DNA of 64,000 bases from Owenia fusiformis. Taxonomy: Eukaryota > Annelida > Polychaeta > Sabellida > Oweniidae. The notes beneath the pieces are model-generated. The model saw nothing but the letters and a program-made list of their open reading frames with translations. It had not been told where the DNA came from and ran no database searches. The stretch lies in NCBI GenBank assembly GCA_903813345.2, contig CAIIXF020000001.1:13039915-13103914 (forward strand), in the 5' to 3' direction. Each line of letters begins with the position of its first letter. Position 1 is the first letter of the stretch. A program made the position numbers and the translations under genes. Below are positions 1,266-23,860 of the stretch, piece by piece.

Positions 1266-4200
1266 GGTTCGATGTTTTCCCTGTTTCTCCACGATGCTGT
1301 CTATCTCTATCTTCTCGCCTTGAACGCTACGATTTCAAACGGTTTAGACTATAAAAATGGATCCATGATATTCGCCATGGCAAAAGAAATGGAATTTGAC
1401 GGTATTTATAATTTACTCTATTTGCAATCTTCATTTACTCAACTAAACAATGGTTCCTTAACCTTTGTTCATTGTTTAGGCTGTTGGGGCTTGTTTTCTT
1501 ACAACTGGCTGTGCTTTTCAATAATTCTTTACGGCCCAAATTATATTTCCTTAAGATGTAATTGTTTGTTTTTCACATTTGTATTTACACATTTTCACAA
1601 TACAATGAAGAAATCATGCATAATCCTAATTTCCCATGTCAACGGGTCCAATATAATATAAAAAATGAAATGAAACAATACCAGGACGGAATGAGGGTCA
1701 CTATAAAATGATAGCATCAAATCAAATTGAATTAAATTTCCCAGGAATGAGTGGTAGGGTAGTGCTTGATGATCAGGGAGAGAGGGAACCTGACTTCTGG
1801 ATCTGGCAACTTCCCCCAGGGAAAGATGAGTTCGAATACATGGCAGAAGTGAAAAACACTGGAAAAGAAGGCCAGGTTAGAAATTTGACATTTTAATATT
1901 TAATATTTTGGGTAAATCAGGATGATCATCTGCCATGCCATGTGTCCCTTGATCTGGGAATATTGATCCATTGCGCCCATAAATGTCAGAATGTGTCAGA
2001 TTTGTAAATTAATGCGCCGTGTAAAATGAAAACCCCAGGATGAACTCACATTATGATGATAATGGTGATATGCAAATGTCATTCAGATGTATGTATATGT
2101 AAACTTCCAACATTTCCATAAGAATATAGTCTCCTGCCGAGTATGTGATCCTATATGATGGGTCAATTGTTAAATAATTATTAAATAATTGACCCAAATA
2201 ATTTTTACTTTCTTGTACATATCAAAAATGTCAATCTCGTGAAACAAATTAAGAACATGTCTTGATAACATTTACTTTTGTGTCCAAACGCTTAATATTT
2301 AAACCCCATACAATATATGATTATAATGATAAATCGACCTTAACTGAAGCTTTCTTATTTTTATTTTCAAATCTGAATTTTACTGCCGTTTCCTTTAAAC
2401 GTGTGTAGCCTATTACAGAAAACTGATGGAAGATAGGATTAATCAATATACATTTTAGATACTATATCCACACGCAGCGATGCAAGGTGTGTCCAATTTC
2501 AACCAATCAGAACACGCTACTTCATATAACTGCATTGCATTATATAGCTAACAACCCACCCAAGGTCATTTATAGATTCTAGTGAAACTAATGAAACTGA
2601 TAAGCTGATCAATTTCATAGTCGAGTAAAAATATAATACAGTATCATATCATGTTTATTATAATAGGGAATAACCTGCAAAGTGCTTGTGCAGGTCAAAT
2701 GGTAAGTATTAAATGGTTGTCAAGGTGACAAGTTGTCTCGTACAAAATATATATTTGAAAATATATTCCTTTTAGTCATTTCGTATCTTTTAAGTGATGT
2801 TGTAAGGAACATTTTGCGATGTGTGAAAAGAATTTAAGCCCAAGACGCATTGCATTGTGGCTTATTCATTCCATTCATTCAGGCGTTATTTCCTAAACAC
2901 CTTAGAGGAATGATTATAATCAGTCTACAATGCACTGAATCTAGGGTTTAAATTCTCAATTTATTTTTGGAATTGCTGCAGGAGGTATATATAATTATTT
3001 TGTAAATAGAAGTAGATAATTCCTTAAATTCATTAAAATATAAAAATGTTAAAGTTTATTTCAAACCTTTGATTTAGTCCTCTTCAAAGGGTTCGTGTCT
3101 CTTAGAATTGCATTAGTCACATGTGCGCATGCGTGTTTTCCTTCAAATGTTCCAGCGAGTCCATGTTCTGAACAAGCCCTATTGGCAAACGAAGGATGGT
3201 AGTGTTCCGCTAGACACCCCAGCGTGTGGGTTTTTTAATGAAAAATGTCTGGAAGAGGAACAAAACAGAGGTAATTTATTTACATGTAAAATGTGTATAT
3301 TGATTAATTCACATAGCGTTAGAGTTACTGCTTAAATAATCCTTTAGCTCATCAAGGAACACTTATATTATCCCTATTAGTGTTTTGTTCTAGTCATCTT
3401 GGAATAGATACTCGTTCTTTGCTTCAGGGCTTGATATTGCCATTATTATGATAGTTGGTGGAGCTGCCGTGTTGTGTATGATGTTGACAGGGGGATATCT
3501 ACTATACAGGTACTTTGCATTGGGAAATTATTGTCGATTTAAGTGGGATTTTACATGACTGTTATATATTTAAGTCTCTATACTTAAATATTTGTATTTG
3601 TTTGTATACTAAACAATAATAATTATTATTCTATTCAGACGGAGGAGAAATGAGGGTGAAGACGAGATGATGTCATGGAAGATCGAGTATGAAGATTTGA
3701 AGTTCAATGTAAAAGTAAAGAAAGGAATCGGAAGTACTGCTACCAAATCAACCGGAAGTCAGGTGTGCAATTTAAATTGTTAGAACGCTGTAATCTAATC
3801 TTATCAGTAATGTGCAAATTCAACAGATTTAGTTGAGAAACATGTCAAGATACAAACTATGATTGTTAATCTAAAATAGTGTGTATATGTGTTTCAAAAA
3901 CATTCATTTCACTTTTTGACAATTACACTGTAGATGTCTAAAAGCAATCTAGACAATCGTTCCAAGAGTAATAACAGCTCTTCGCACGTCGATCAGTCCA
4001 GTCAGGAAGGCGTGACGAGCCAGGAGAGGCAAGATAGAACTGTTGGAATGTATAAAACAGTGACTGTATGGGTGAAATACATCCACGCTGGAATACTTCT
4101 CACCAAAGAAGACCACAAGGAACTCAAAGTGGTAACTGCGGTTATGATTATTAACTAAATAGTAACGTTAGCAACTGAATGAATAATGAAACACCACTGA

Positions 4201-7200
4201 GTAAAAATTACGTAAAAGTCATGATACATAAAAGCAAAAGTAGTAAAAGTATTGAACATTTACACTATTTATATAATTTTTGTGTTTTTAGATGAAAGAC
4301 TTGAGTCATGAGAATGTTAACCAGTTTGTCGGAGTTTGTATCGTTCCACCAAAAGTTTGCATTTGCTTCGCATTTGCCGCTAAGAGAAGTCTGCAGGTGA
4401 AACTATGAATATAATTTATATAAGTCTATATGTACATCCCATAAATGGCTGACCATTATACACAAGCGTTATATTGTGCACATTTTTAAAAAAGCATGTG
4501 AATGTATTCTATGTAACTAATGAATGGTTGACATTGTAGGACATCATTTCTAATGAGGACATCAAACTGGATTGGATGTTTAAACAGTCACTAATCTCAG
4601 ACATCGTCAATGTATGTATTTATGTTCCTCTTAAAACCAATGTGCACGATGTTAACAAAGTAACTATAGAATCCTTCCAAGTCATCCTCCGAACGCAGGG
4701 TTCCAGACATCATCCACTAAGTTCCTTCCTTCTTCTAGAAGAAGGAGGTATGACTTCTGGAGGCCTGTGTTTGGAGGATGTTCGAAGTAAGTGTTTCAAT
4801 TCTTTTGGACAAAAGCAGTGCAAAGGCTAATTACATAATGATGATTTAAAAGAAACAATTCATATCGGTAGTTCTTACGTGAGCAATTTCAGTAAAATAA
4901 AATATCATCAAAATTATTTTAATTTCAAAGGGTATGGAGTATATCCATGGCTCATTGTTGGTCTCCAATGGTAATCTGAAGAGTAGCAATGTTGTTATTG
5001 ATGGTCGTTGGATGCTCAAGATATCTGACTATGGTCTACAGTCTTTTCGGATGGCCACTGCCAGAAAGAATTCAAAGGGCGAATTCGCAGCATATTATGG
5101 TTTGTAGACTATATTGAATAATGTGCGTGCAAACAAATAATATTATTATGATATTAATATTTTAATTGGTATGCCGATCTATGAAAATATGTTTGATTAC
5201 TTTGAACTAATTCTATTTTTGCTTTCAGCAAAGCTGTGGCGAGCTCCCGAGCTGCTGAGGATGGCAAACGCTCCACAAAAAGGAACTCAAAAGGGAGACA
5301 TTTATAGCTTTGCCATCATTCTGCAAGAAATAATATTTCGCACTGGACCCTATCATCAGACTGAAATCCACCCAAAAGGTATTTTATTCACTATGCAGAG
5401 TTGCAGACCGCCATTATACCTATATACAGAGGGTGGGCCAAAAAAAACCAATACCCAACTTCAAATCAGGATAAAAATAGTTGCATTCAATATGATACAT
5501 TGACCTACATATCATTTTAAAGGTTATACAATTTCAAATAATTTGATATATAACACTATGTCATGAAATCAATAGTACAGTTTTATTATACTTATTTGGG
5601 AGGCCGGGTTGCTATTTGGGGTCTCTAGATTTTAGGGAGAAAATAGTAAATCTGCGGGATTTTGTTAATTTTTTTTATAGAAAATTATTCTTTTGTTAGG
5701 TGAATACATGCTTGGATATTGATATTTGCATCATTGTGTGACTAAATTTATTGTTTATGAATTTCAGTGTTGTTTAATAACATTTTACACTTTATTTATT
5801 TAAACAATTTTAACAATTGCTCAATGTACCCCACCCCCTCCCCTCTGAATCAACAATAAGCTTCAAGTGGTAGCGCAATCTATCAATAGCCTTATTGAGA
5901 GATTTCTGTTGCAATTCCTTTCAGCACTTTAGGATTTTGTTTCAGCTCATCAATGCTGTTTATTGGATACTTTTAATTGTACCATTTCTTCGAGATGGCT
6001 CCATGTATGGTAATCAAACACATTAGCATCGGGGCTGTTGGGTGGCCAAGCATCGAGATCAATCAAATTGACACCTTGTTTGCAAAGAAATGCCAATGTC
6101 TCCTTTGATCTATGGTACGAGGCAATGTCTTGTAGGAAAATAAAATCCTCGTCACATATACGTTTAATTTCTTTTAACAGACCCCCTTTGAGTACTTATT
6201 GATAATAAACAACACTAAAATTCATAAACAATAAGTTAAGTCACACAATATGCAAATATACAAGCATGTATTCACCTAACAAAATGATATTCTATAAATA
6301 AAAAATTAACATTATTCCGCAGATTTACTATTTTCTCCCTAAAATCTGGATACCTTAAATACCGACCCGGCCTCCCAAATAAGCATGATAAAACTTTAAT
6401 ATTGATTTCATGACATAGTGTTATATACCAAATTGTTCGAAAATGGATTACCTTTAAAATGATATATAAATCAATGTAACATATTGAACATAGCTATTTT
6501 TATTCTGATTTAAAGTTGGGTATTGTTTTTTTTGGCCCACCCTGTAAATTGAAAGATTCGGATGTCTTTTTGAGTAGTTTCTACTAGTGATAGTGATCAA
6601 TTTTATTTTGAACTGTTTTAGCATGTTAAGCGTGCATTGTATGTGATTTGTGCAGATATCGTAGGGAGGGTTGCTCGAGGTGATAACCCACCATATCGAC
6701 CTGATGTACCTGCAACGTCCGAAGAGGGAAACACTGCGATAGCCATGATAGAACTTATGCGAAACTGCTGGCATGAAAACCCAGACTATCGCCCTTCTTT
6801 TACTGACATTAAGAAACAGATGACAAGTGAAAATCGGGGCAGGTGAGTCTAACATATACTTGATAAACTTTATTTTGTATTTAGAAATTGTTGGTCGAGT
6901 AGCAAGGGGGGATAATCCACCATATCGACCTTTGATGCCAATGGATGCAGATATTAACATCAATATGGTTGAGATGATGCGAACCTGTTGGCATGAAAAT
7001 CCATTTTATCGACCAAGCTTCGTTGACATAAAGAAACAATTGAAATCATTTGATCAAGGAAAGTAAGTATAGAAAACAGTCTACATTTTAGTGTTAATGG
7101 TTTTGGTCTTTTTGGATTGACAGCGTTCGTACCTGGGTTTACCCTTGTTTTCCATTCATTCGATCTTTGTTATCGTAACATTGGGTAATTGGGTACTGTT

Positions 7201-10200
7201 AATCTTGATGATATGTTTCTGCACGTGTAGGAAGTATAATATCATGGACAAGATGCTGATGAAAATGGAAGCTTATGCGAATAACCTTGAAGAAGTTGTG
7301 GAGCACAGAACACAGGAACTGATGGAGGAGAAGAAGAAGACTGATACACTGTTATACAGAATGTTGCCGGGGTAAGAATCCAGAAACACCTCTCTGGCTT
7401 TCATTGTCTCGTGGTCGGACATTTCATTTCAAGTATGTGAGGCATATAATGATAAGATGGTATGGCCTCGATGTGTTTACACTCTCCCATGTATACCGTT
7501 CCGTATTAGTGAAATTGTTGACATTAATACGGAATAAATCATACCATTTCATGAAAAATGGTGACCTTGTCCTACGGAAATTGAGATTATGTTTCACAGC
7601 AAGTTCGCACGGCGATACTGTATAGCACATGCTCTGGGGAATTGATTCTACTTTCTATAGACACCAATCACATCTCTGTCAATATAATAATAAAAAAGCC
7701 TTAGGGTCCCAACCTCCTTTGTTTACATTTACAAAAATCTGAAAAAATGACAAAAGTTGCCATAACTTTTTAAATCTAAATCTGTTGAAACCGATTTCAC
7801 TTGCTTGCGACAGATACTTTAGTCCTTCACGAACCGAACATGTCAGTTTGGTTCGTAATATCTACAAATAAACGATTTCAACATTTTGAAAAACTCGATG
7901 CTAGTCCACGTGTTAATACGGAATGGGTGTTAAATCGTATACATTCCCGGGGAAATCACAATTTCCACAAAGCTTGCAATGATGCATCTTATTGCATGCA
8001 AATGGCACGTTAATCAACAGCGTCAACACGTCCGTCAATCGCAAGGATCGAATGTACATAAACAGTGTTCTCTTTTTCTTAAAGGCCCCATGTAAAGTTT
8101 AAACCACTTTGGCTTATATTGTAGTCTTACCCAATGTTATCAAAGTGTGATATGTGAAACTTTTTTTTTAAATTTCAAAAAGTGGTTTTTGATAGACTTT
8201 GTGTTCCAAAATTTGTGAATTTATTTAAAACCAACTTTTAGAGGTCACTCATATCTTGTTATTAGCCACAATTCATACCAATGCATAGCATTCATCCTCC
8301 CATGTTTTTTGCAGAAAAAATTAAGAAAATCGGTTGATAAACAAGCGAGAAATGAACTTATCAGTGCATGAAAATGGTTCTGAGAAAAATGCATTTCAAA
8401 ATTTTAGTTCTCATAGAAACCAATGGTACAATGATATCTAAAACATAATTTATTCTTCCTTTTAACCTGGTTAGACAATCAATATTGTTTTTTTTATGAA
8501 AGTTTAGCATATTTAGAAAAGATTGATATCGAAAAAAAAAATTCAATTTTTTTCAAAAAGTTTTTGTTACCTTAGTGACATCACTAATGTTTCAAAATAT
8601 TTTTGATAAGCTAAAACATTGAAGTGGCCCATTAAATATGACATTTTATTATTGAAATAGTGTGTCTTTTGTTCAATCTTTGCATTGGTGTTAAAAAGAT
8701 AATCTTTTTTGAAATGCATTAAGAAATATTTGATGATTAAGAAATTTCAACTTTTTTTGAAAAATGGCGGGAAATTTGAATATTTGAGAAATGAAATGCT
8801 CACAACTTTTTTTTCCAAAATTGTTTTTTGTTCAAAAATCTCTAAAACCACTTTTTAAGTCCTGACAAATAGTAAATGAATGATAAAAAAATATTTTCAA
8901 ACTTTAGACGGGGACTTTAAGTATTTAAAGATACATGTAAGTTGTCCATCGACGGCGTCAACGTGATAGCTTTACGCCCATTAATAGTATAGATAGGTTG
9001 TTGTGCCTTTTCTTATTGCATCTAATAGGTATTAGTTTTACCGACGGCTACAACGTATGTCCTGGATCCAAGCAACGTGTTTGTTTTGTATTTAAGAATT
9101 GCTATAGCCATGGGATGGTCTCGCGTGGGGTATTTTTTGGGGTGCACAAGAAAACCCCACGAAAGTCCCGGTAGGTGTATATTATTAGGTACTTTGTGAA
9201 CGTGTTGAGTTGTTTTCTTACCTGCCGATTCCCCCAACACGTTCCCATTACACCAGAGGATGATTGAAGTGTTAAAAATGGACAGCCAGCCGCATTGTCT
9301 TTGTAAAAGTGGGCAAGACCACAACAAAAGTCTTTTGATTTTTCCGACATTTTCATTCAAAAACGTGGTTGACGCCACATTTTAGAAAGACAATTAGTAC
9401 TAAATGAGAATAGCTGTCCATTCCAGTCTAGTGCTGGCACTTAGATGATTTTCTTGCCAAGGTTGTGGTACATTCTTCAAACCGACATGACACTCTTACC
9501 CTCTCCATGACAATGAAGTTATAATTGAAACTAAATGCCCATGCTACTGAAACCCGTATTCAAGGTATTATGTTTAATACCCCGGGTTAAAACATACTAA
9601 TATTGTACAACACTACTAATTATCTTAATTGCTTCATTTCATTCACGAGTGTACAGTTTCGTTCATTGAGTTTACCTATCGAGTCGACCAATTCCGTATT
9701 AACACGTGGACTAGCATCGAGTTTTTTAAAATGTTGAAATCGTTTATTTGGAGATATTACGAACCAAACTGACATGTTTGGTTCGTCAACGACTAAAGTA
9801 TCTGTCGCTGGCAAGTGAAATCGGTTTCAATAGTTTAAGATTTAAAAAGTTATGACAACTTTTGTAATTTTTTCACGTTTTTGTAAATGTAAACAAAGGA
9901 GGTTGGGACCCTAAGGCTTTTTTATTATTCTATCGACAGCGATGTGATTGATGTCTATAGAAAGTAGAATCAATTCCCCAGAGCATGTGCTATACAGTAT
10001 CGCCGTGCGAACTTGCTGTGAAACATAATCTCAATTTCCGTAGGACAAGGTCACCATTTTTCATGAAATGGTATGATTTATTCCGTATTAATGTCAACAA
10101 TTTCACTAATACGGAACGGTATACATGAGAGAGTGTTTATATTTGATGCTATAACCGTTTTGTTCACACATTTGAAGTATATGAGGCATATAATGATCAG

Positions 10201-13200
10201 AGGGTACAGCCTCGAAGTGCTTCTATTATACTAAAATCTCTTTGTTTACACATTTTAGACCTATTGCTGAGAGTTTGAAGACTGGGAAATCTGTCCACCC
10301 AGAACTATATGATACAGTGACTGTTTTCTTCTCAGATATAGTGGGCTTTACAAGGTTATGCTCAAAAAGTACACCATTACAGATCGTCACTCTTCTTAAT
10401 GACCTTTATACACTTTTCGATGATGTCATTGCCAAATATGATGTATATAAGGTACACTAATCTGAACATTTTATTTCAATGTTATGTCTGTTTTGGCATG
10501 TCTTATAAACTGCCAATCATGCAAGCATGCTTGAAATGCAAAACTACTCAATGCGGTCCATCAACTACATCAAGGATCATCGAAACCGGTGGAAGCAAAA
10601 TACATTGATTAAGGGGGTGGGTATTTGAATTGTCAGTTATATGTATTGTTGTCTATGGGGTCATTTATCTAGGTGGAAACTATAGGAGATGCCTATATGT
10701 GTGTGAGTGGACTACCTCTACGAAATGGTAACAAACACGTTGCTGAAATAGCAGACATGGCCCTCGACTTGCTCAGTTCTATAGCTTCTTTCAAGATCAG
10801 GCACAGACCAAATAAACAGCTACAGGTATGAAAACTCCCGCAATTCCGGGACTACTCTGTCGGGATCAAGATAAGATTTGATCCTATGTTTCAAATTATA
10901 GTGTCTATAAGGATTTGTCATTTATTCCGTGTACTGGTAGAAGTGCATTGGACATTATAAGCCCCAAAGATACAAAATGATGCCTTTTTATTTGAGTTGG
11001 GCTGATGTTCAGAAGTTATCATTTATTATTTTAGATTTGTTTCTTTTAACGTTTTACATGATACATGGATATGGACCATATTTTCATTTTCATCCCTTTT
11101 ACCATGTTTTTACAATATTCATTAAGGCTAGGATAGGGATCCACACCGGCCCATGTGCAGCAGGTGTTGTTGGGACACAGATGCCTCGGTACTGTCTATT
11201 TGGTGACACTGTCAATATGGCATCCACTATGGAATCAACAGGGGAAGGTAAAATAGGTTTAACAATAACATCTTATGAAATAGAACGCTATTTAACACAT
11301 TATCTCCAGTATGGCATTATTTTTGCTTCTTTATTCATTAAATTCAAATATATTCGATATATGAAACATTCATATTCGCTAAATCATTTTTCCATTCGGT
11401 AAAAACGTTTATATGTTTGTTACAGCAAATTAAGTTTTCAAAATAGCCAATCACTTAATACTATGTGCATTAAATTACATATTTCATTCGTTAAATGATT
11501 TTTTTGCGTAAATTGTTATGGTATTCCTTAAGAGTAACACATTATATGCACAATATTGAATTTTTATTTGAACCCTACCGAAATAAGTTTGCCTATATTT
11601 ACCAAATGGTTTATTTTTCTATGACATAGTTAATGCATTTTACCGAAAACTGTTTTGCTATTTACCGAAAGCTAATTTGCTATTTACCGAATGCAATAAA
11701 GTAATATTCGATAACTTGCGTTGTGGTTCGATATTTTGTCACGTGACTTCGAGATTTGCAAAATGGCCGCGCAGCTATTCTACATCGTACAAATATATCA
11801 CGTGACTGAAAGTCTCGTAAATTATCGAAAAATAACGAAATTTATCGAATGTGGCATTCGGTATTTACCGAATATAAATAATTTAAATACCGAATGTACA
11901 AATAATTAATTGAATTATACGTGCGTTAAGGAAAACAAATTGATTCGCTGCATCACACAAATACATGTATACATATCAAATGTGAATGTCAATACAAAGA
12001 ACAAGTGAAACTATTTAGCGAATATAAATTGTATAGATTATTACATTTGATAAAATAAAAAAACATTCGATAGATTGGGTAAAGGTTTGGTAAATTGTTT
12101 GTTTTATTTGGTATTTATGGAATATTGATGTACCGAATAAAGAAGCAGTTTAAACATCATATTCCAGTTGTGATTGTCTAGAATGTGATCAGACCCTGGG
12201 GATCAGATCCCACATGTTCCCATCGTATGCCTGGACCAATCGGTGCACATGGATATTGCCTTTCTGCACTATAAATATTCCTTTGTACTAATTTAGTGTC
12301 AAGGCTATTCCAAAGAATTCATCCTCATGCAATTTATGAGAAGAATAAATAATGTTTTAATGGTTGTAGCATTACGTATACAGATGAGCCAGGAGGCAGT
12401 AGATGTTCTCTTGGAACACACAGGCTACATGGTGAAGGAAAGAGGCGATGTGGAAGTAAGAGTAGGTGTCCTATTATGTATTTTCGAATCGTTTCCTTTT
12501 CGTTGTCTGTATCATAAATACAAAGCTTTTGATGTATCATTCATAGAGAACAATTGAAAAATATGAATTTTTATAGGATATTAATTAGTCTATTTATCAT
12601 CTGCTTCATCTATGTAGGGAAAGGGAAATCTGACGACCTATTGGTTGACTGGTAAACGGGGTTTCCACAAGCCGCTCCCCAAACTCAGTGTTGACTTGTA
12701 AGTTATACACAGATCGTGATCACTTATTTGATGTACTGGCCCTTTTAGCATGTTTTTTGATATAGTCAATCACTTTATACAACAGTTATATTAAGGATGT
12801 TCAGGGGACAAACTTTGTTTTAAATAGTATTTCAACATAATATTTGGTAAGCACATGGGCTACAAATATGTAAGGGCTAGTATCAGAAAATTTCCAGAGA
12901 ACATCCTTAATTTGCAATATTTGATCATATGAATATTTTGGTTATTGGAAAAAAATGAATATTTTGGTTATGTAGGCGGTTGAAATAGAACAAAAGGCCT
13001 ACTTCCATTTTCAGGCCTCATATGATTGTTGAGGAAATTGATGACTTGACAGGTCAGTATCAACGAGTTGAAATCCTTCCACGTTTTTTTCTAAAAGTTT
13101 TATAAAGTGATTGTTCAACTAATGACTAAATCATATTCTGTCTTGCAATGTGGATATTTAATTTTATAAAGTCAATAAGTATTTAAGAGATATATCATTT

Positions 13201-13301
13201 GAAACTTGATTAAATGGAACTTACACGCTTTACAAAAGAATTTAATCTTAATTGATTTTGAATTATAAATCTTAACCCTTTCAGATCAAGTGGTGACATG
13301 A
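1266..13301 (+). CDS. Membrane receptor guanylyl cyclase (natriuretic-peptide-receptor type), 5' partial
   Basis: Makes cGMP from GTP at the membrane. Exons read by phase: 1266-1401, 1745-1875, 3156-3270, 3428-3509, 3639-3762, 3934-4131, 4292-4396, 4540-4611, 4931-5099, 5229-5378, then 6656-6842 or 6885-7062, 7231-7371, 10259-10451, 10673-10825, 11127-11247, 12370-12455, 12618-12697, 13015-13052, 13285-13301 (stop). Order: end of the ANF-receptor domain ([22 protein letters not shown]), membrane helix ([20 protein letters not shown]), kinase-homology domain ([37 protein letters not shown]), linker coil ([20 protein letters not shown]), cyclase domain ([42 protein letters not shown]). The Glu of ETIGDAY and the Cys of RYCLFGD are the GTP-selective residues. 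The usual NTASRMES reads NMASTMES, so the transition-state Arg is Thr. Acceptor of the first exon and the last two small exons are less certain; upstream exons lie outside or are lost. Confidence 0.93.
2090..3155. repeat. Downstream copy of the 230-800 segment, interrupted by an insertion
   Basis: Intron sequence paralogous to 230-800. The match covers about 2090-2460 and resumes near 2960, with about 500 bp of unrelated dispersed repeat inserted between (see 2470-2955). It ends at the acceptor of the cyclase exon at 3156. Confidence 0.65.
2470..2955 (+). mobile_element. Dispersed repeat, copy 1 (second copy inverted at 21183-21560)
   Basis: Shares GCAAGGTGTGTCC at one end, then GTGTGAAAAGAATTTAAGCC and AGGCGTT.TTTCCTAAAC, with the reverse complement of the chitinase-intron segment at 21183-21560. 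Its insertion splits a segment whose uninterrupted copy lies at 230-800, so the empty site is visible. No coding capacity seen and the class is unknown. Confidence 0.65.
4683..4780. mobile_element. Short hairpin MITE, copy 1
   Basis: A 98-bp near-palindrome in a cyclase intron. It starts CATCCTCCGAACGCAGGGTT and ends GGCCTGTGTTTGGAGGATG, and the arms pair through CCAGA/TCTGG. A second copy lies at 32713-32799. Confidence 0.65.
5427..6544 (-). mobile_element. Mariner/Tc1-like element relic with long inverted repeats
   Basis: A 1.1-kb element in a cyclase intron, flanked by TA. Both ends read CAG.GGGTGGGCCAAAAAAAAC (left) and its inverse (right), and the inverted arms extend about 380 bp. The minus strand near 5990-6140 encodes a decayed DDE transposase piece: [20 protein letters not shown] followed by [15 protein letters not shown], the QD..SYH and WP..SPD.N blocks of Tc1/mariner enzymes. 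No intact frame is present. Confidence 0.8.
6656..6842 (+). other. Guanylyl cyclase alternative exon A (kinase-homology C-lobe)
   Basis: 187-nt exon entered in phase 1 and left in phase 2. It encodes [16 protein letters not shown], then [19 protein letters not shown] and DIKKQ. The acceptor is TTGTGCAG and the donor is AG|GTGAGT. It joins in frame to the exon at 7231. It is a paralogue of the exon at 6885-7062, and using both would shift the frame. Confidence 0.9.
6885..7062 (+). other. Guanylyl cyclase alternative exon B (kinase-homology C-lobe)
   Basis: 178-nt exon with the same entry and exit phases as exon A. It encodes [16 protein letters not shown], then [19 protein letters not shown] and DIKKQ. 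The acceptor is TTTGTATTTAG and the donor is AA|GTAAGT. Only 42 nt separate it from exon A. The segment between the two conserved blocks differs most ([12 protein letters not shown] in [12 protein letters not shown] in B). Confidence 0.9.
7474..10141. repeat. Large inverted repeat in a cyclase intron (arms about 430-450 bp)
   Basis: The arm at about 7474-7925 is closely matched in reverse complement by about 9706-10141. Shared landmarks are GTATACCGTTCCGTATTAG, GGTTGGGACCCTAAGGCTTT and ATACTTTAGTC. A TTAA-flanked MITE (8083-8916) sits in the loop. Outside the arms is a roughly 45-bp direct repeat (7431-7475 and 10175-10218, sharing GAGGCATATAATGAT). Both arms keep an open frame containing NMSVWFVIS and [11 protein letters not shown], but no family is recognised. 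Confidence 0.8.
8083..8916. mobile_element. TTAA-flanked MITE, family 1 copy 1
   Basis: 834 bp between TTAA (8079-8082) and TTAA (8917-8920). The ends AGGCCCCATGTAAAGTTT and the inverse of AGTCCCCGTCTAAAGTTT form imperfect terminal repeats. A nearly identical copy in opposite orientation is at 56253-57084 in a NIPBL intron. TTAA duplication suggests piggyBac-type mobilisation (inference). No coding region. Confidence 0.8.
11400..12150. repeat. AT-rich intron segment with scattered TTACCGAA/ATTCGGTA motifs
   Basis: The cyclase intron between 11247 and 12370 carries around ten short motifs of the form TTTACCGAA, ATTCGGTA or ATTCGATA in both orientations within 700 bp, with very AT-rich spacers. 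No gene or clear terminal repeat found. Confidence 0.4.
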
Positions 13302-17986: not shown

Positions 17987-20900
17987 ATGGATATATGGAT
18001 TTTGTTATCGTCTGCATTTTCTATTGCATTATGGGGCATTGTCTCTTCGTCAGGTATGTCTGTTTCAATAATCTCAAATTGTATTTATGGATATGACTTA
18101 GGCCTGTAATCTGCAGCAATACTGTATACTTGTATCAAGACATGTTCTACATGCCCATTGAATGATTTAAAGCATCTTTTTGCATCCACGCTAGAAATCA
18201 CCAAAATTCTTATTGAATTGGCATTACAGAGAACAAGATGTTCTGTTACTACAGTAGCTTCGCCATCAACAGATCAGGCAAGGCTAAGTTCCTCCCCGAA
18301 CACATCAACCCTTATCTCTGCACTCATATCATTTACGCATTTGCTGACGTGGTCGATGGTAGAGATCTGAGGCCATCGGCTAAGGATGACGTTAGCAATA
18401 AAGGTATACAGTGTAAATATTGTAATTTTTTTAACACAAATAATGTGTTGTTCTTAAATGTAATAACACGATTAATTTTTAGAAAATGTTGATTTTCAGT
18501 GTTTGCATATTATAGATAACAAAGCTATATAGGAATCTGATATGATTAAACTTACCAGCCCAATGCTTCCGAGTCGGAGTTTACTTACAAATGAATTGTA
18601 TCCATGTTCCAGATATTCATTCAGATATTTCCCAAGTTAATTTAGTGTTAGAGAATAATATGTTGGTTTTGCATATAAATACGATATTTTTCGGTAGAAC
18701 AAATGTTCTTCTTCAGCCATGCTATAACTATATACGAACATGAATCACATTATTAAAACAAGGTACATCTTTTAGGATTATACTACAGGACAATGGGTCT
18801 GAAGAAGTTAAATCCAGAACTAAAGGTCCTGTTGGCAGTAGGGGGTTGGTTTGTCGGTTCAAAACCATTCATTCCTATCTTGCAGTCCGACTCCAATCGT
18901 TTGGCATTTGTTGCCAACGTAATTGCCTACCTAAGAAAGGTACGTAGGTTGGCATTTTTGTCATATTTTTGAAAATGTTGTTATTCAGTAAAAGCCAAGT
19001 CGCAAGATAGCAGATAAGCGGCATTTAAAAAACATTTGAATTAAAGTTCTCTATGTTAATTCCCGATGACACAAAATATTGCAGATTCATTCCAAATTGA
19101 TTTTAAAATTACAATTTGATTTCTAATTCTTTCGCTCTCTTCAGTATAACTTTGATGGCCTGGATATGGACTGGGAGTTTCCAGGGGCACGAGGAAGTCC
19201 TGAATCTGACAAGCATCGTTTCACTCTCCTGATGAAGGTACATGGATTTAAAATACCTGTCACATTTACAGTGTGGGCTCACCGTTTGCCACCATGTGGC
19301 TGATTCTCCAGAATTTTTATTAATGCCCAGGCATTAATCTTTTAATTAATCAATTGCCATAATTTTTGTATTTGGTGTGATGGGGGATATCTTGCTTTAA
19401 AAATATTTATTTTACCCATCATGTACCCATGCCGAATCCCATCGTCTGCCCAAAAATATTCACACGGTTGAAAAAATTGTGTCAAAGCCCAATGTGACAG
19501 CTCCATAAACACAAATCCATTAATACAAGTTAGAATATGTTCTCTCGTTTGAAAATATTATGATAGCGTTTATAGTCATCTTAAACGAAACATGCTTGAT
19601 AATTTATAATCAATACTGTTGTGATAGTGTTTTCCAATAGATTAATTGTTGGCGCATTAAATTCAAAACTTTGTCCATTTGATTTACAGGATCTCCAAGA
19701 TTCATTCCGAGAAGAGTCAAAGTCTAGTGGTAGAGAAAAACTTCTGTTAACCATGGCAACCGCCGGAGGGATGTACTTTATCAGTAAATCGTACGATCCA
19801 CCACGGTTGATACCGTAAGTAAAATCAACGTTCAAACAGATACTTATAACATTACTTCTGCACTAATATCTGATAACTATTGATTTTTATAAAAAGTAAT
19901 TGATCAAAAAATATCAAAGTCATATTTCATTTCGATCATATTATCTCGGCCAGCCCTCAATTAATCGAATAAGAAACAATAGGCCAATGGGTCAATGGAA
20001 GTTTATTTTTTGCGTAAATATCATTTCCGACATTGAGTTTGAAACAAACCACTGGCAATTGCAGGTTTCACAGTTGATTACCATGAACAATTCCAAAGTT
20101 GCATACGCTGAATTTGATCTTTAGATGTTTTAAATGTTAAGCAAGAGGGAAAATTTTCCGGATTTTTCGGATTTTGATTATTTTAGATAGGTTTGTAGCT
20201 GCTTTTTCTCTCTTCAAGGGTAACAATATAAAAATGCAACCTTTTTAAAGTGCTTTGTTACATGAAAAATCCTCATCGAAGAAAGTCATTGGCATCTGAA
20301 AATATTGCCAGATTTACAATACTGAGTTTGCTACATTTTGCTGGAATGCATCGGTAGTAGCCAGCGTGGTACATTATGAGGTGTAAGCTAATTTATAAAT
20401 AGACATAAGACACATCTAACTCATCTTTCTTATAATTTTTAGTTTTTATTGCCTTATGGCAGATAATATCTTCTGCGCCGGCTATTCTATTTGACCTACT
20501 TTCTGAACTTTCTCGCCTTTTTGGAACTTTCTTGATTTCTGTCGGCAGTTTTGAAAGATTGAAACTGGCAAAGAAGAAAAACTTCCCCCACAATATGTTT
20601 GTAATAGAAATTCATTATTTCTAAATAATGGTAATTTCCTACTTTTTTGATTTAGTCATTTTTTTATCGAAAATTAATTACTTTCAGTCACATCGACTAC
20701 CTGTTACTAATGGCCTACAACTATCATGGGAGCTGGGAGGATAGGACTGGGCATCACAGCGGTAGCCACCCCCGGGCACAGGAAGTGGGGCCTGAGAGGC
20801 AGTTAAACCAGGTTAGTCACTATATCTGGAACAGGCGTAAAATATTGGATGTGCTTACCTCATTATAAAATACTTCTTTGACTCCACCAAAATGAATTAC

Positions 20901-23489
20901 AGAAAATGGTAGCGGTACTAGCTGCGGAATATCTCTCGAGAGCCCTGTCTTTGGAGGATGCTTTTATATTATTAATGGTTGAAATTTATCAGCTTTTCAG
21001 GTTTATGGCTAATTGTGTACTGGATATGATTTGTCAATTAATGAGTCGACTGTCTTAATAAATGCAAAACGATCAATTGAATTTATCGATATATTTTATA
21101 AGGATGAGTTATTATAAGATTGACAAGCATTGAACATTTAAATCTTCTCGAAAATAAATAAAAAATCTCTAACGATACTATTGTTTAAGGATTTAAGCCA
21201 TGGACTCAGTGCATTGTTTGCTGAATCATTGTTTCTAAACCTTTGCATGACCGCGCAGCGGGAATGCAACGTTTAGGAAACAACGCCTGAGTGGAATGAA
21301 GTCTTGGGCTTAAATTCTTTTCACACATTGCAATTTTTCTACAAAATCATCCAAAAGGAACGAAATCACCAAAATAACACATTTTCAATGAATTTTTTTG
21401 CAAGGGTCAAGTTGGCAAGTCATCAAATCCAAGGTGAAAAGTCCATTCATCAACATGACATCTGTTTAACAAGTGACCTTGCATGTGCTATTGATATTTC
21501 ACACACTGTTCTATCTGTGAAATACTATTTGGCTGGAATCGGACACACCTTGCCTAGCTATGTGTGAATAGTGTCTTAAAGTTATAAACTCAGGACTCCG
21601 TACATATTGTTCAGTGTGACAATGGAATAGAATGACAAGATACAAGGTGGCGTCTAGAAAATAAAATTTTAAGTGCTCTAACTGTATTCAATGGATTTCA
21701 TGTTTTGTTGTAAACCACCAAATATCTACCAAAATATAGCTGCCTTTCTGTCAGGAATATACAATTAATGGAATTAATTAATTAATGAAAATATCAAAGC
21801 TTCTGCTTGAAAGAATTGCTTATATCACACAAAAACCTCAAGCCGTGGGTGTAGACCACAGAAAGCATTAACGAGCATTTGATAGTTTTTTGTAATTTTG
21901 GGATCAAAGTTTGAGAGATCTTTCGCTCATATTATTTTGTGTAATAATTTTTTTTGTAAATCAAAAAGTTCATACCTCAAGAGCTATAAACAGTATATCT
22001 TTTCATTTCAGCAATGGACAATTGACTACTGGTTAGAGCAAGGTGCCAGTCAGGACAAATTGATCGTTGGCATAGCAACGTATGGAATGACTTTCACGTT
22101 GGCGGATGCAAATCAAAATGGTGTAAATGCAAGTGCAACCGGGGGTGGAAAGAAGGGAAAATATACAAAAGAAGAGGGCATACTTTCGTACTTCGAGGTA
22201 AAATTCAACAAAGCAATATTTTGTATAGCTGCATTTTAAAGAGTTCAGTTAAGAACGTCCCTCTCCGAAAAGGCATTTACAAATCGAGTAATGCCAAATA
22301 TTATTTATGTTCCAGATATGTGATTATATGAAATATGGGATGAAAACTGTTTGGATGGATGAGCAAATGGCGCCTTATGGTTACCATAACAACCTGTGGG
22401 TTGGCTATGACAACCAGGAGAGTATCACCTACAAGGTTCGTTACAATGGTTTTGAACATATTTGTACTACATTTACTAATAATATTATGTAATTATCATC
22501 GTCTTTTTTAGCCTAATTGAGTTTGTAACATAGAATCATAGATTGGTTTTGAATTTTTCCTTTAGATATGGTATGAACTAAGACTGAAACAAGTTTTTCC
22601 AGATATCAAACTCATTCTCTTTTGTTCGGTTCTTTGATTTTAAATCGGTTTATTGTAGGCCAATAACATCAGGAACAGAGGCTTAGGCGGGGCATTTATT
22701 TGGTCGGTGGAAATGGATGACTTCAATGGAAAATCATGTAACCAAGGCAGATATCCACTCCTTTCGACAATAGCAGAGATCCTTAGACCACAATCGGTGA
22801 AGACGTACATACCAAGATTCCCTCGTCCGAATAGGCGAACCACTTTACAACCTGGCCAGAGGACGCTAAGGCCAACACCAAGGAAGGTTAGACCAACTAA
22901 GAATAAAGTAAGACCTCGTTCTCGAACAAATGCTATCCCTGAAAGACCCAAAACTGACAGCCAGAATGCTAACGGTGTAAAAACAGCCAAATCCGACTCA
23001 GCTGACAACATGAGGGAACTGACTTCCAAAAAGGAAGGAGATCCCGATATGGTAACAGACGAAGAGAATGGCGACAGTCGGATTTCTCATCGAGGGGGAA
23101 ATAACAAATATCAACGAACGAGAACTATTCCTACTGAAAACGAAGATGATACAGAATCAAAACAGATTAAAACAGGTACGAGATCAAAAATCGAAAGATT
23201 AGACAATAAACTTTTAGAGGATGAGCAAAGCGTCCATGTTATAAAAAAGAAAAAGACTCCAATTGAAAACACAAAACCTTCAACTCATGATCAAAATACT
23301 GAAAGTGAGTCTAAAGTTAAACGAAAGGATGGAAAACGGATACGAGTTCGACTCAGAAAGAATAAAACTGGGGAGAAAAATAGTATTCCTGACAATTTGT
23401 CAAGTTCAGCTCCATATATGCCCGATGCGTCCTCCACCTCATTTACCGTATTAACGATATTGATGGCACAATATTGCATTTATATTTAA
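17987..23489 (+). CDS. GH18 chitinase, long isoform with basic tail and GPI-signal-like C-terminus
   Basis: Hydrolyses chitin outside the cell or at its surface. Exons: 17987-18053, 18230-18403, 18776-18939, 19145-19237, 19690-19814, 20688-20811, 22012-22197, 22316-22435, 22659-23489; all phases agree and give 627 residues. A signal peptide ([19 protein letters not shown]) is followed by a GH18 barrel: [20 protein letters not shown], the catalytic [11 protein letters not shown] (DxxDxDxE, Glu as proton donor), [37 protein letters not shown]. After about residue 380 comes a long low-complexity tail rich in Lys, Arg, Glu and Ser. The last 15 residues ([15 protein letters not shown]) follow [14 protein letters not shown], which looks like a GPI-attachment signal. 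AATAAA lies 105 nt after the stop. Exon-internal donor at 23175 allows another ending. Confidence 0.93.
21183..21560 (-). mobile_element. Dispersed repeat, copy 2 (inverted relative to 2470-2955)
   Basis: Lies in the chitinase intron 20812-22011. Its reverse complement shares GCAAGGTGTGTCCGATTCC, GTGTGAAAAGAATTTAAGCC and AGGCGTTGTTTCCTAAACG with the cyclase-intron copy. A short frame within it is not a gene. Confidence 0.65.
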
Positions 23490-23593
23490 CCTATAAAAAG
23501 TTGAAAAACAACCATTTCATTATTTGTATTTTCTACGTGTTTTCCAACAAGTTTGTAATACTACTGTACATATATTATATTGATACCAGACGA

Positions 23594-23599
23594 AATAAA
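23594..23599 (+). terminator. AATAAA polyadenylation signal for the long chitinase isoform
   Basis: AATAAA about 105 nt after the stop at 23489 and upstream of the CBM14 exon at 23691. It lies inside what would be the intron of the chitin-binding isoform, consistent with a composite terminal exon. Confidence 0.55.
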
Positions 23600-23690
23600 T
23601 AACTGTTTACTATTAATCATAAAGTTTGTTATAAAACTATACAAACAACACAATCATTTATAAATTGTGAAAAACATATTTTATTTTCAG

Positions 23691-23860
23691 GCAAATTCGT
23701 TTGCCCAACTGCTGGTTTTTATAAAGACACCCTAGACTGTGGTAAATATTACATCTGCTTGAACATGGGGAATAAATATCGCCAGTTTCACCTTTCTTGT
23801 CCCCGGGATCTTAGGTGGGATAATACCCTACAGATTTGCACTTATAAGCATGGTTGCTGA
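23691..23860 (+). CDS. Alternative terminal chitinase exon: CBM14 chitin-binding domain
   Basis: A good acceptor (TTATTTTCAG) opens an exon whose first two bases complete a Gly codon from the internal donor ACAG|GTACGA at 23175. The reading is FVCPTAGFYKDTLDCGKYYI, then CL..., LSCPRDLRWD, LQICTYKHGC and stop. Six cysteines and the YY.C and CP..L.WD blocks are those of the peritrophin-A type chitin-binding domain (CBM14). The resulting protein would be 579 residues and would lose the hydrophobic C-terminus. As no other gene start precedes it, it is best read as the second ending of the chitinase. Confidence 0.85.

Follow-up and report, generated by a model that had tools for sequence, protein, structure and literature searches.

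A tandem pair of paralogous exons, probably spliced as mutually exclusive alternatives, in the pseudokinase domain of a receptor guanylyl cyclase gene of Owenia fusiformis

A receptor guanylyl cyclase gene of Owenia fusiformis carries, side by side, two paralogous exons (A and B) that both code for the final piece of the kinase-homology domain, and we put at about 0.8 the probability that they represent an old tandem exon duplication deployed as mutually exclusive exons. The gene lies on the plus strand of the window, by which we mean the whole 64,000-nt stretch of DNA analysed here (G000:C1:13039915-13103914). The original prediction for this stretch described two adjacent exons coding for the same kinase-homology block with the same entry and exit phases, used one at a time; the coordinates of the pair proved to be exact, and a mutually exclusive pair is still the best reading of the exon anatomy, of the splice-site scores and of the selection acting on both copies, features of the genome sequence from which we infer exclusive and tissue-specific use. 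To our knowledge, the way in which receptor guanylyl cyclases relay the ligand signal through their inactive kinase domain to the cyclase is not settled. A gene with two versions of the last pseudokinase piece, and the rest of the protein identical, would amount to a natural domain-swap experiment, and the 42-nt gap between the exons offers a compact and testable case of steric exclusion in a genome where every sampled intron exceeds it in length by a factor of about 2.6 or more.

Our gene model spans the transmembrane exon to the stop codon (Table 1); the extracellular exons lie outside the model, and the gene extends upstream past the start of the window. The transmembrane segment, the kinase-homology domain, the dimerization helix and the cyclase domain share one open frame. 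A translation that starts at position 4292 and includes B and the dimerization exon aligns to chains of natriuretic peptide receptor 1 with an E value of 4e-84, and the kinase-homology and dimerization part matches guanylyl cyclase C with an E value of 6.5e-34. The match to the Pfam kinase profile reaches position 258 of 258 in the A/B region, at a score below the curated cut-off; short pieces consisting of A or B and the dimerization exon score 22.1 and 19.6 bits, under the 23.1-bit cut-off. The intron directly before A contains an inverted-repeat element (arms at 5436-5685 and 6289-6538, 86%), and between its arms, on the minus strand at 5950-6195, lies a transposase remnant that we take to be Tc1/mariner-like. 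The intron before the cyclase domain contains a pair of 450-nt inverted arms (7479-7928 and 9687-10136) that are 96% complementary, lie 1758 nt apart and probably represent a young palindromic mobile element. Elsewhere in the window, a degenerate tandem repeat, whose ACAATGTTTGATAAAAGTCCTCCACATGTAACCTCCGATTCTTT-like units recur about every 43-44 nt, occupies positions 1-1100. Beside the cyclase gene, at 18110-23860 of the plus strand, are frames that presumably belong to a chitinase-type (GH18) gene; they include a linker rich in Ser, Thr and Lys and, at the C-terminal end, a chitin-binding-like piece.

Table 1. Exons and intervening segments of the receptor guanylyl cyclase gene, in window positions
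Feature	Position	Strand	Basis or remark
Extracellular pieces	about 1270-1400, 1745-1875, 3140-3270	+	approximate borders
Transmembrane-segment exon	3428-3509	+	translation, splice borders
Kinase-homology exons (n = 6)	3639-3762, 3934-4131, 4292-4396, 4540-4611, 4931-5099, 5229-5378	+	
Intron ahead of exon A	5379-6655	+	1277 nt
Alternative exon A	6656-6842	+	187 nt; 63 codons including junction bases
Gap between A and B	6843-6884	+	42 nt; GTGAGT...TTTAG
Alternative exon B	6885-7062	+	178 nt
Common downstream exon	7231-7371	+	dimerization helix
Catalytic-domain and tail exons	10259-10451, 10673-10825, 11127-11247, 12370-12455, 12618-12697, 13015-13052, 13285-13301	+	stop codon in the last

Both exons open with an A directly after an AG, and they are followed by the donors GTGAGT (A) and GTAAGT (B). 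Joined singly to their neighbours, each keeps the frame open through the cyclase domain, for 637 residues counted from the transmembrane exon in the 5378-A-7231 arrangement and for 634 in 5378-B-7231. The frame stops early, after 371 residues, when A and B are joined, after 308 when neither exon is present and after 362 when A is followed by the retained gap; the claim that joint inclusion breaks the frame, each exon length being 1 mod 3, is thus borne out. The lengths are as had been described, but they provide no independent evidence for exclusive splicing: the paralogous single exons are asymmetric too (10 of the 10 read), so that any tandem copy of such an exon would inherit a frame-shifting length.

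The peptides encoded by A and B are 63% identical over aligned codons and match each other in tblastn with an E value of 2.6e-24, which rules out chance similarity. The two exons are reciprocal best matches in searches of the genome and, among the 29 and 25 matches listed, the sole pair less than 10 kb apart. Third codon positions are only 42% identical (dN 0.32, dS saturated), yet the peptides have stayed alike, which argues that both copies have been kept by selection. When neutral drift was simulated down to 42% base identity, protein identity averaged 14% and never exceeded 27% in 5000 runs, with the frame still open in 321 of them. Of the 18 positions conserved in at least nine of ten paralogous exons (see below), A retains 17 and B 15, and each retains nine of the ten positions that never vary among those exons. 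Splice-site strength was judged relative to a reference set of 23 donors and 23 acceptors drawn from the cyclase gene and from its paralogues, without the sites of A, B and L011 and without one further acceptor. The donor of A outscores 22 and that of B 21 of these 23 donors; the acceptor of A outscores 18 of the 23 acceptors, and that of B all of them. Neither exon looks like a relic.

These figures bear on an alternative that we consider improbable, namely regulated unproductive splicing, in which one exon would be constitutive and the other would mainly yield frame-shifted, decaying transcripts and so lower the amount of receptor. The early stops produced by joining A to B and by retention of the gap are what such a mode of control would use. 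However, a pure poison exon need not retain its peptide, whereas both A and B keep most of the family-conserved residues as well as the phases, and the frame shift on joining is a property of every asymmetric duplicated exon and carries no special signal.

The gap between the exons had been described as shorter than animal introns normally allow. It is shorter than any intron in a sample of 167 from the same genome, none of which falls below about 112 nt, and to this extent the statement holds. Intron sizes were estimated from exon-by-exon matches of the myosin, chaperonin, kinesin and cyclase families, in a first set of 105 (minimum 118 nt, median 368 nt) and a second of 62 (minimum 112 nt, median 416 nt). 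Three of the smallest were read base by base and measured 112, 133 and 126 nt, so that of the three estimates those of 112 and 126 nt were exact and that of 118 nt was really 133 nt. By the rule of three, introns shorter than about 100 nt make up less than roughly 2%, in a sample that was partly hand-picked (182 of 296 matches from one search set and 106 of at least 157 from another, in searches that scored part of their candidates; most of the rows left out were isolated matches, matches that continued through introns, or parts of a myosin exon array and a kinesin repeat). Four matches with internal stops, read by eye, contained no short introns. In the rebuilt part of the cyclase gene the remaining introns are at least 129 nt long. 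For animals in general, however, the statement was too strong, as a 43-nt intron has been analysed in human ESRP2 (PMC8363638, in excerpt), and direct splicing of A to B is consequently improbable but possible.

Within the gap, three candidate branch points of the yUnAy type (A6852, A6863 and A6872) lie 10, 21 and 30 nt past the last base of A, and no AG occurs from intron nucleotide 6 to the 3' splice site. Two yUnAy motifs inside exon A are disfavoured by the AGs at 6841 and 6846. With regard to exclusion of the RNA-pairing (Dscam-like) type, which involves conserved, competing pairings in introns, the RNA folding of 6800-6930 is ordinary (z -0.39, from a single sequence). About 50 nt is used as the lower limit for the distance from donor to branch point in the portions of two studies available to us (PMC7969005; PMC5740500), and in a gap of 42 nt any branch point sits under this proposed limit. 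We regard as very unlikely the possibility that the gap is a true ultrashort intron and the A-B mRNA a normal product, encoding a truncated receptor that lacks the cyclase and acts as a dominant-negative or decoy. Its GT and AG score high at both ends of the gap, the stop in A+B comes where the kinase-homology domain ends, and the human intron provides a precedent of nearly the same size (PMC8363638); against it stand the sizes of the 167 sampled introns and the 10-30 nt between the donor and the candidate branch points, and it leaves no reason for the conservation of the B peptide in its own frame.

A search of the 498-Mb genome identified ten further loci (L003 to L012) that hold a homologous exon with an E value of 2.4e-7 or better, and weaker homologous matches at C9:21750026 (E 3.5e-4) and C7:23280606 (E 5.2e-4). 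AG and GT are present at the corresponding borders in all ten loci. The exon measures 178 nt in eight of them and 184 nt in L008; in L011 it measures 175 nt if the donor is the GTAAGT located 8 nt beyond the match. B has the usual length of the family; compared with B and the paralogous exons, A has three inserted codons. Nine of the ten loci have one same-strand copy between the neighbouring exons, and L007 has no upstream neighbour within the flank fetched; the single copy in the nine loci that span the interval rules out an exon pair common to the family. Every additional weak match in the paralogous loci (E 0.026 to 8) lies on the opposite strand and was put down to chance; the strongest, that of B in L012 (E 0.026), overlaps the downstream neighbour exon. 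Two more distant pairs of copies, one on the same strand (C2, 32677402 and 32701225) and one on opposite strands (C1, 50494320 and 50512179), were rejected because each copy has cyclase exons of its own. In prokaryote and viral sequence collections, a search for relatives gave 54 and 46 pattern matches, none of which was confirmed.

In a tree of these exons A and B group together, if weakly (74/90; matched by 20 of 500 label shuffles), B being on the longer branch (0.8 versus 0.25), and the two have in common a glycine at position 4 that is absent from all ten paralogous exons. Identity of A or B to L003 or L004 is 57-60%, near the figure for A against B, which suggests that the duplication dates from about the time at which this gene and its nearest paralogues diverged. 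The least probable reading is that one exon is a relic, open by chance, and the other alone is used: the lack of a second same-strand copy in all nine paralogous loci spanning the interval, together with the longer branch of B and its smaller share of family-conserved residues, would suit a decayed copy, but the gap between peptide and third-position identity, the neutral simulation (few open frames, and far lower protein identity at the same silent divergence) and the splice-site scores, with an acceptor of B stronger than all those compared, go against it.

Under mutually exclusive splicing, the spliceosome would take only one of two sites, the donor of A or the acceptor of B, since a gap of 42 nt would leave no room to occupy that donor and a branch point of B within the gap simultaneously. 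A committed donor of A would block the branch point of B, and vice versa, so that each transcript would contain A or B, in the join 5378-A-7231 or 5378-B-7231. Products with both exons, with neither or with the gap retained would stop early and would be expected to be removed by nonsense-mediated decay. The outcome would be two receptor guanylyl cyclases that differ solely in the last 60 or so residues of the pseudokinase. As the splice sites of both exons are high-scoring, the choice is probably set by trans-acting regulators and not by a weak default.

In the alignment with chain 9bcv_A, A and B correspond to residues 718-776 (the end was placed by eye), the last part of the pseudokinase, which precedes the dimerization helix. 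We take the segment to comprise helices alphaG to alphaI and, by analogy, its variable part to be the alphaG-alphaH region. A and B are identical at 15 of 16 positions in a first block, at 3 of 15 in a middle segment, in which A has its 3-residue insert, and at 20 of 29 in the last block; the isoforms would thus differ mainly in one segment of 15-18 residues before the dimerization helix. The middle segment, whose borders were picked after the alignment was known, is less conserved than the outer blocks in 63 of the 66 pairwise comparisons within the family, with the contrast between A and B the strongest of the 66; it is better conserved than the blocks solely among L003-L005. That this variable stretch tunes the regulation of the cyclase, as had been proposed, is possible. 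A more specific proposal, that the swapped C-lobe segment makes a splice-switched pseudokinase with altered transmission from ligand to cyclase or altered binding of a partner such as a chaperone or a phosphatase, is tentative and in our opinion rather doubtful. In guanylyl cyclase C, as described in part of PMC10400071, the C-lobe packs against Cdc37 within the Hsp90 complex, a contact that might be specific to one isoform. The switch would be old, given that the divergence between A and B is close to that separating the gene from its nearest paralogues, and related animals should share the pair.

Two other arrays of repeated coding sequence were seen in the genome. A muscle-type myosin gene (L018; G000:C9:37985401-37995400, minus strand) has 13 full and two partial tandem copies of a myosin-head exon, of about 53 residues each and spaced by 0.3-1.4 kb, a candidate for a large mutually exclusive exon array; such arrays have been described in lophotrochozoan myosin genes (PMC3912159, in part). 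At G000:C2:23266359-23269174 (minus strand), 18 near-identical matches to one 38-residue stretch of a kinesin motor recur 159 bp apart, and are either a coding exon turned minisatellite or an assembly artefact.

Mutually exclusive duplicated exons, the steric kind included, are already well known. Smith and Nadal-Ginard reportedly showed by experiment, in 1989, that exons 2 and 3 of alpha-tropomyosin exclude each other through an unusual branch-point location; that case concerns another gene and differs from A and B in its distant branch point and longer intron. The domain order of the gene described here is the same as in natriuretic peptide receptor 1 and guanylyl cyclase C, and a text search of the open-access literature found no account of alternative exons at the corresponding position of receptor guanylyl cyclases. 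Among human clusters of mutually exclusive exons, potential steric interference was counted in 57 of 629 (9%) and frame-incompatible lengths in 377 of 629 (60%), and the sections of that study available to us name no guanylyl cyclase (PMC5740500); those clusters were validated by RNA-seq, on junction criteria similar to those of the original prediction, and the A/B pair is read from genome sequence. As far as the excerpts of PMC7969005 go, a close likeness is to exons 4a and 4b of vertebrate OGDH, which are also tandem duplicates separated by an intron limited in size, and in which branch points 25-41 nt from the upstream donor enforce exclusion in humans. Unlike the A/B gap, the OGDH intron measures 118-131 nt in birds and mammals and its branch points are far from the acceptor; these were mapped in OGDH, whereas those proposed between A and B are guessed from motifs in a gap of 42 nt (PMC7969005).
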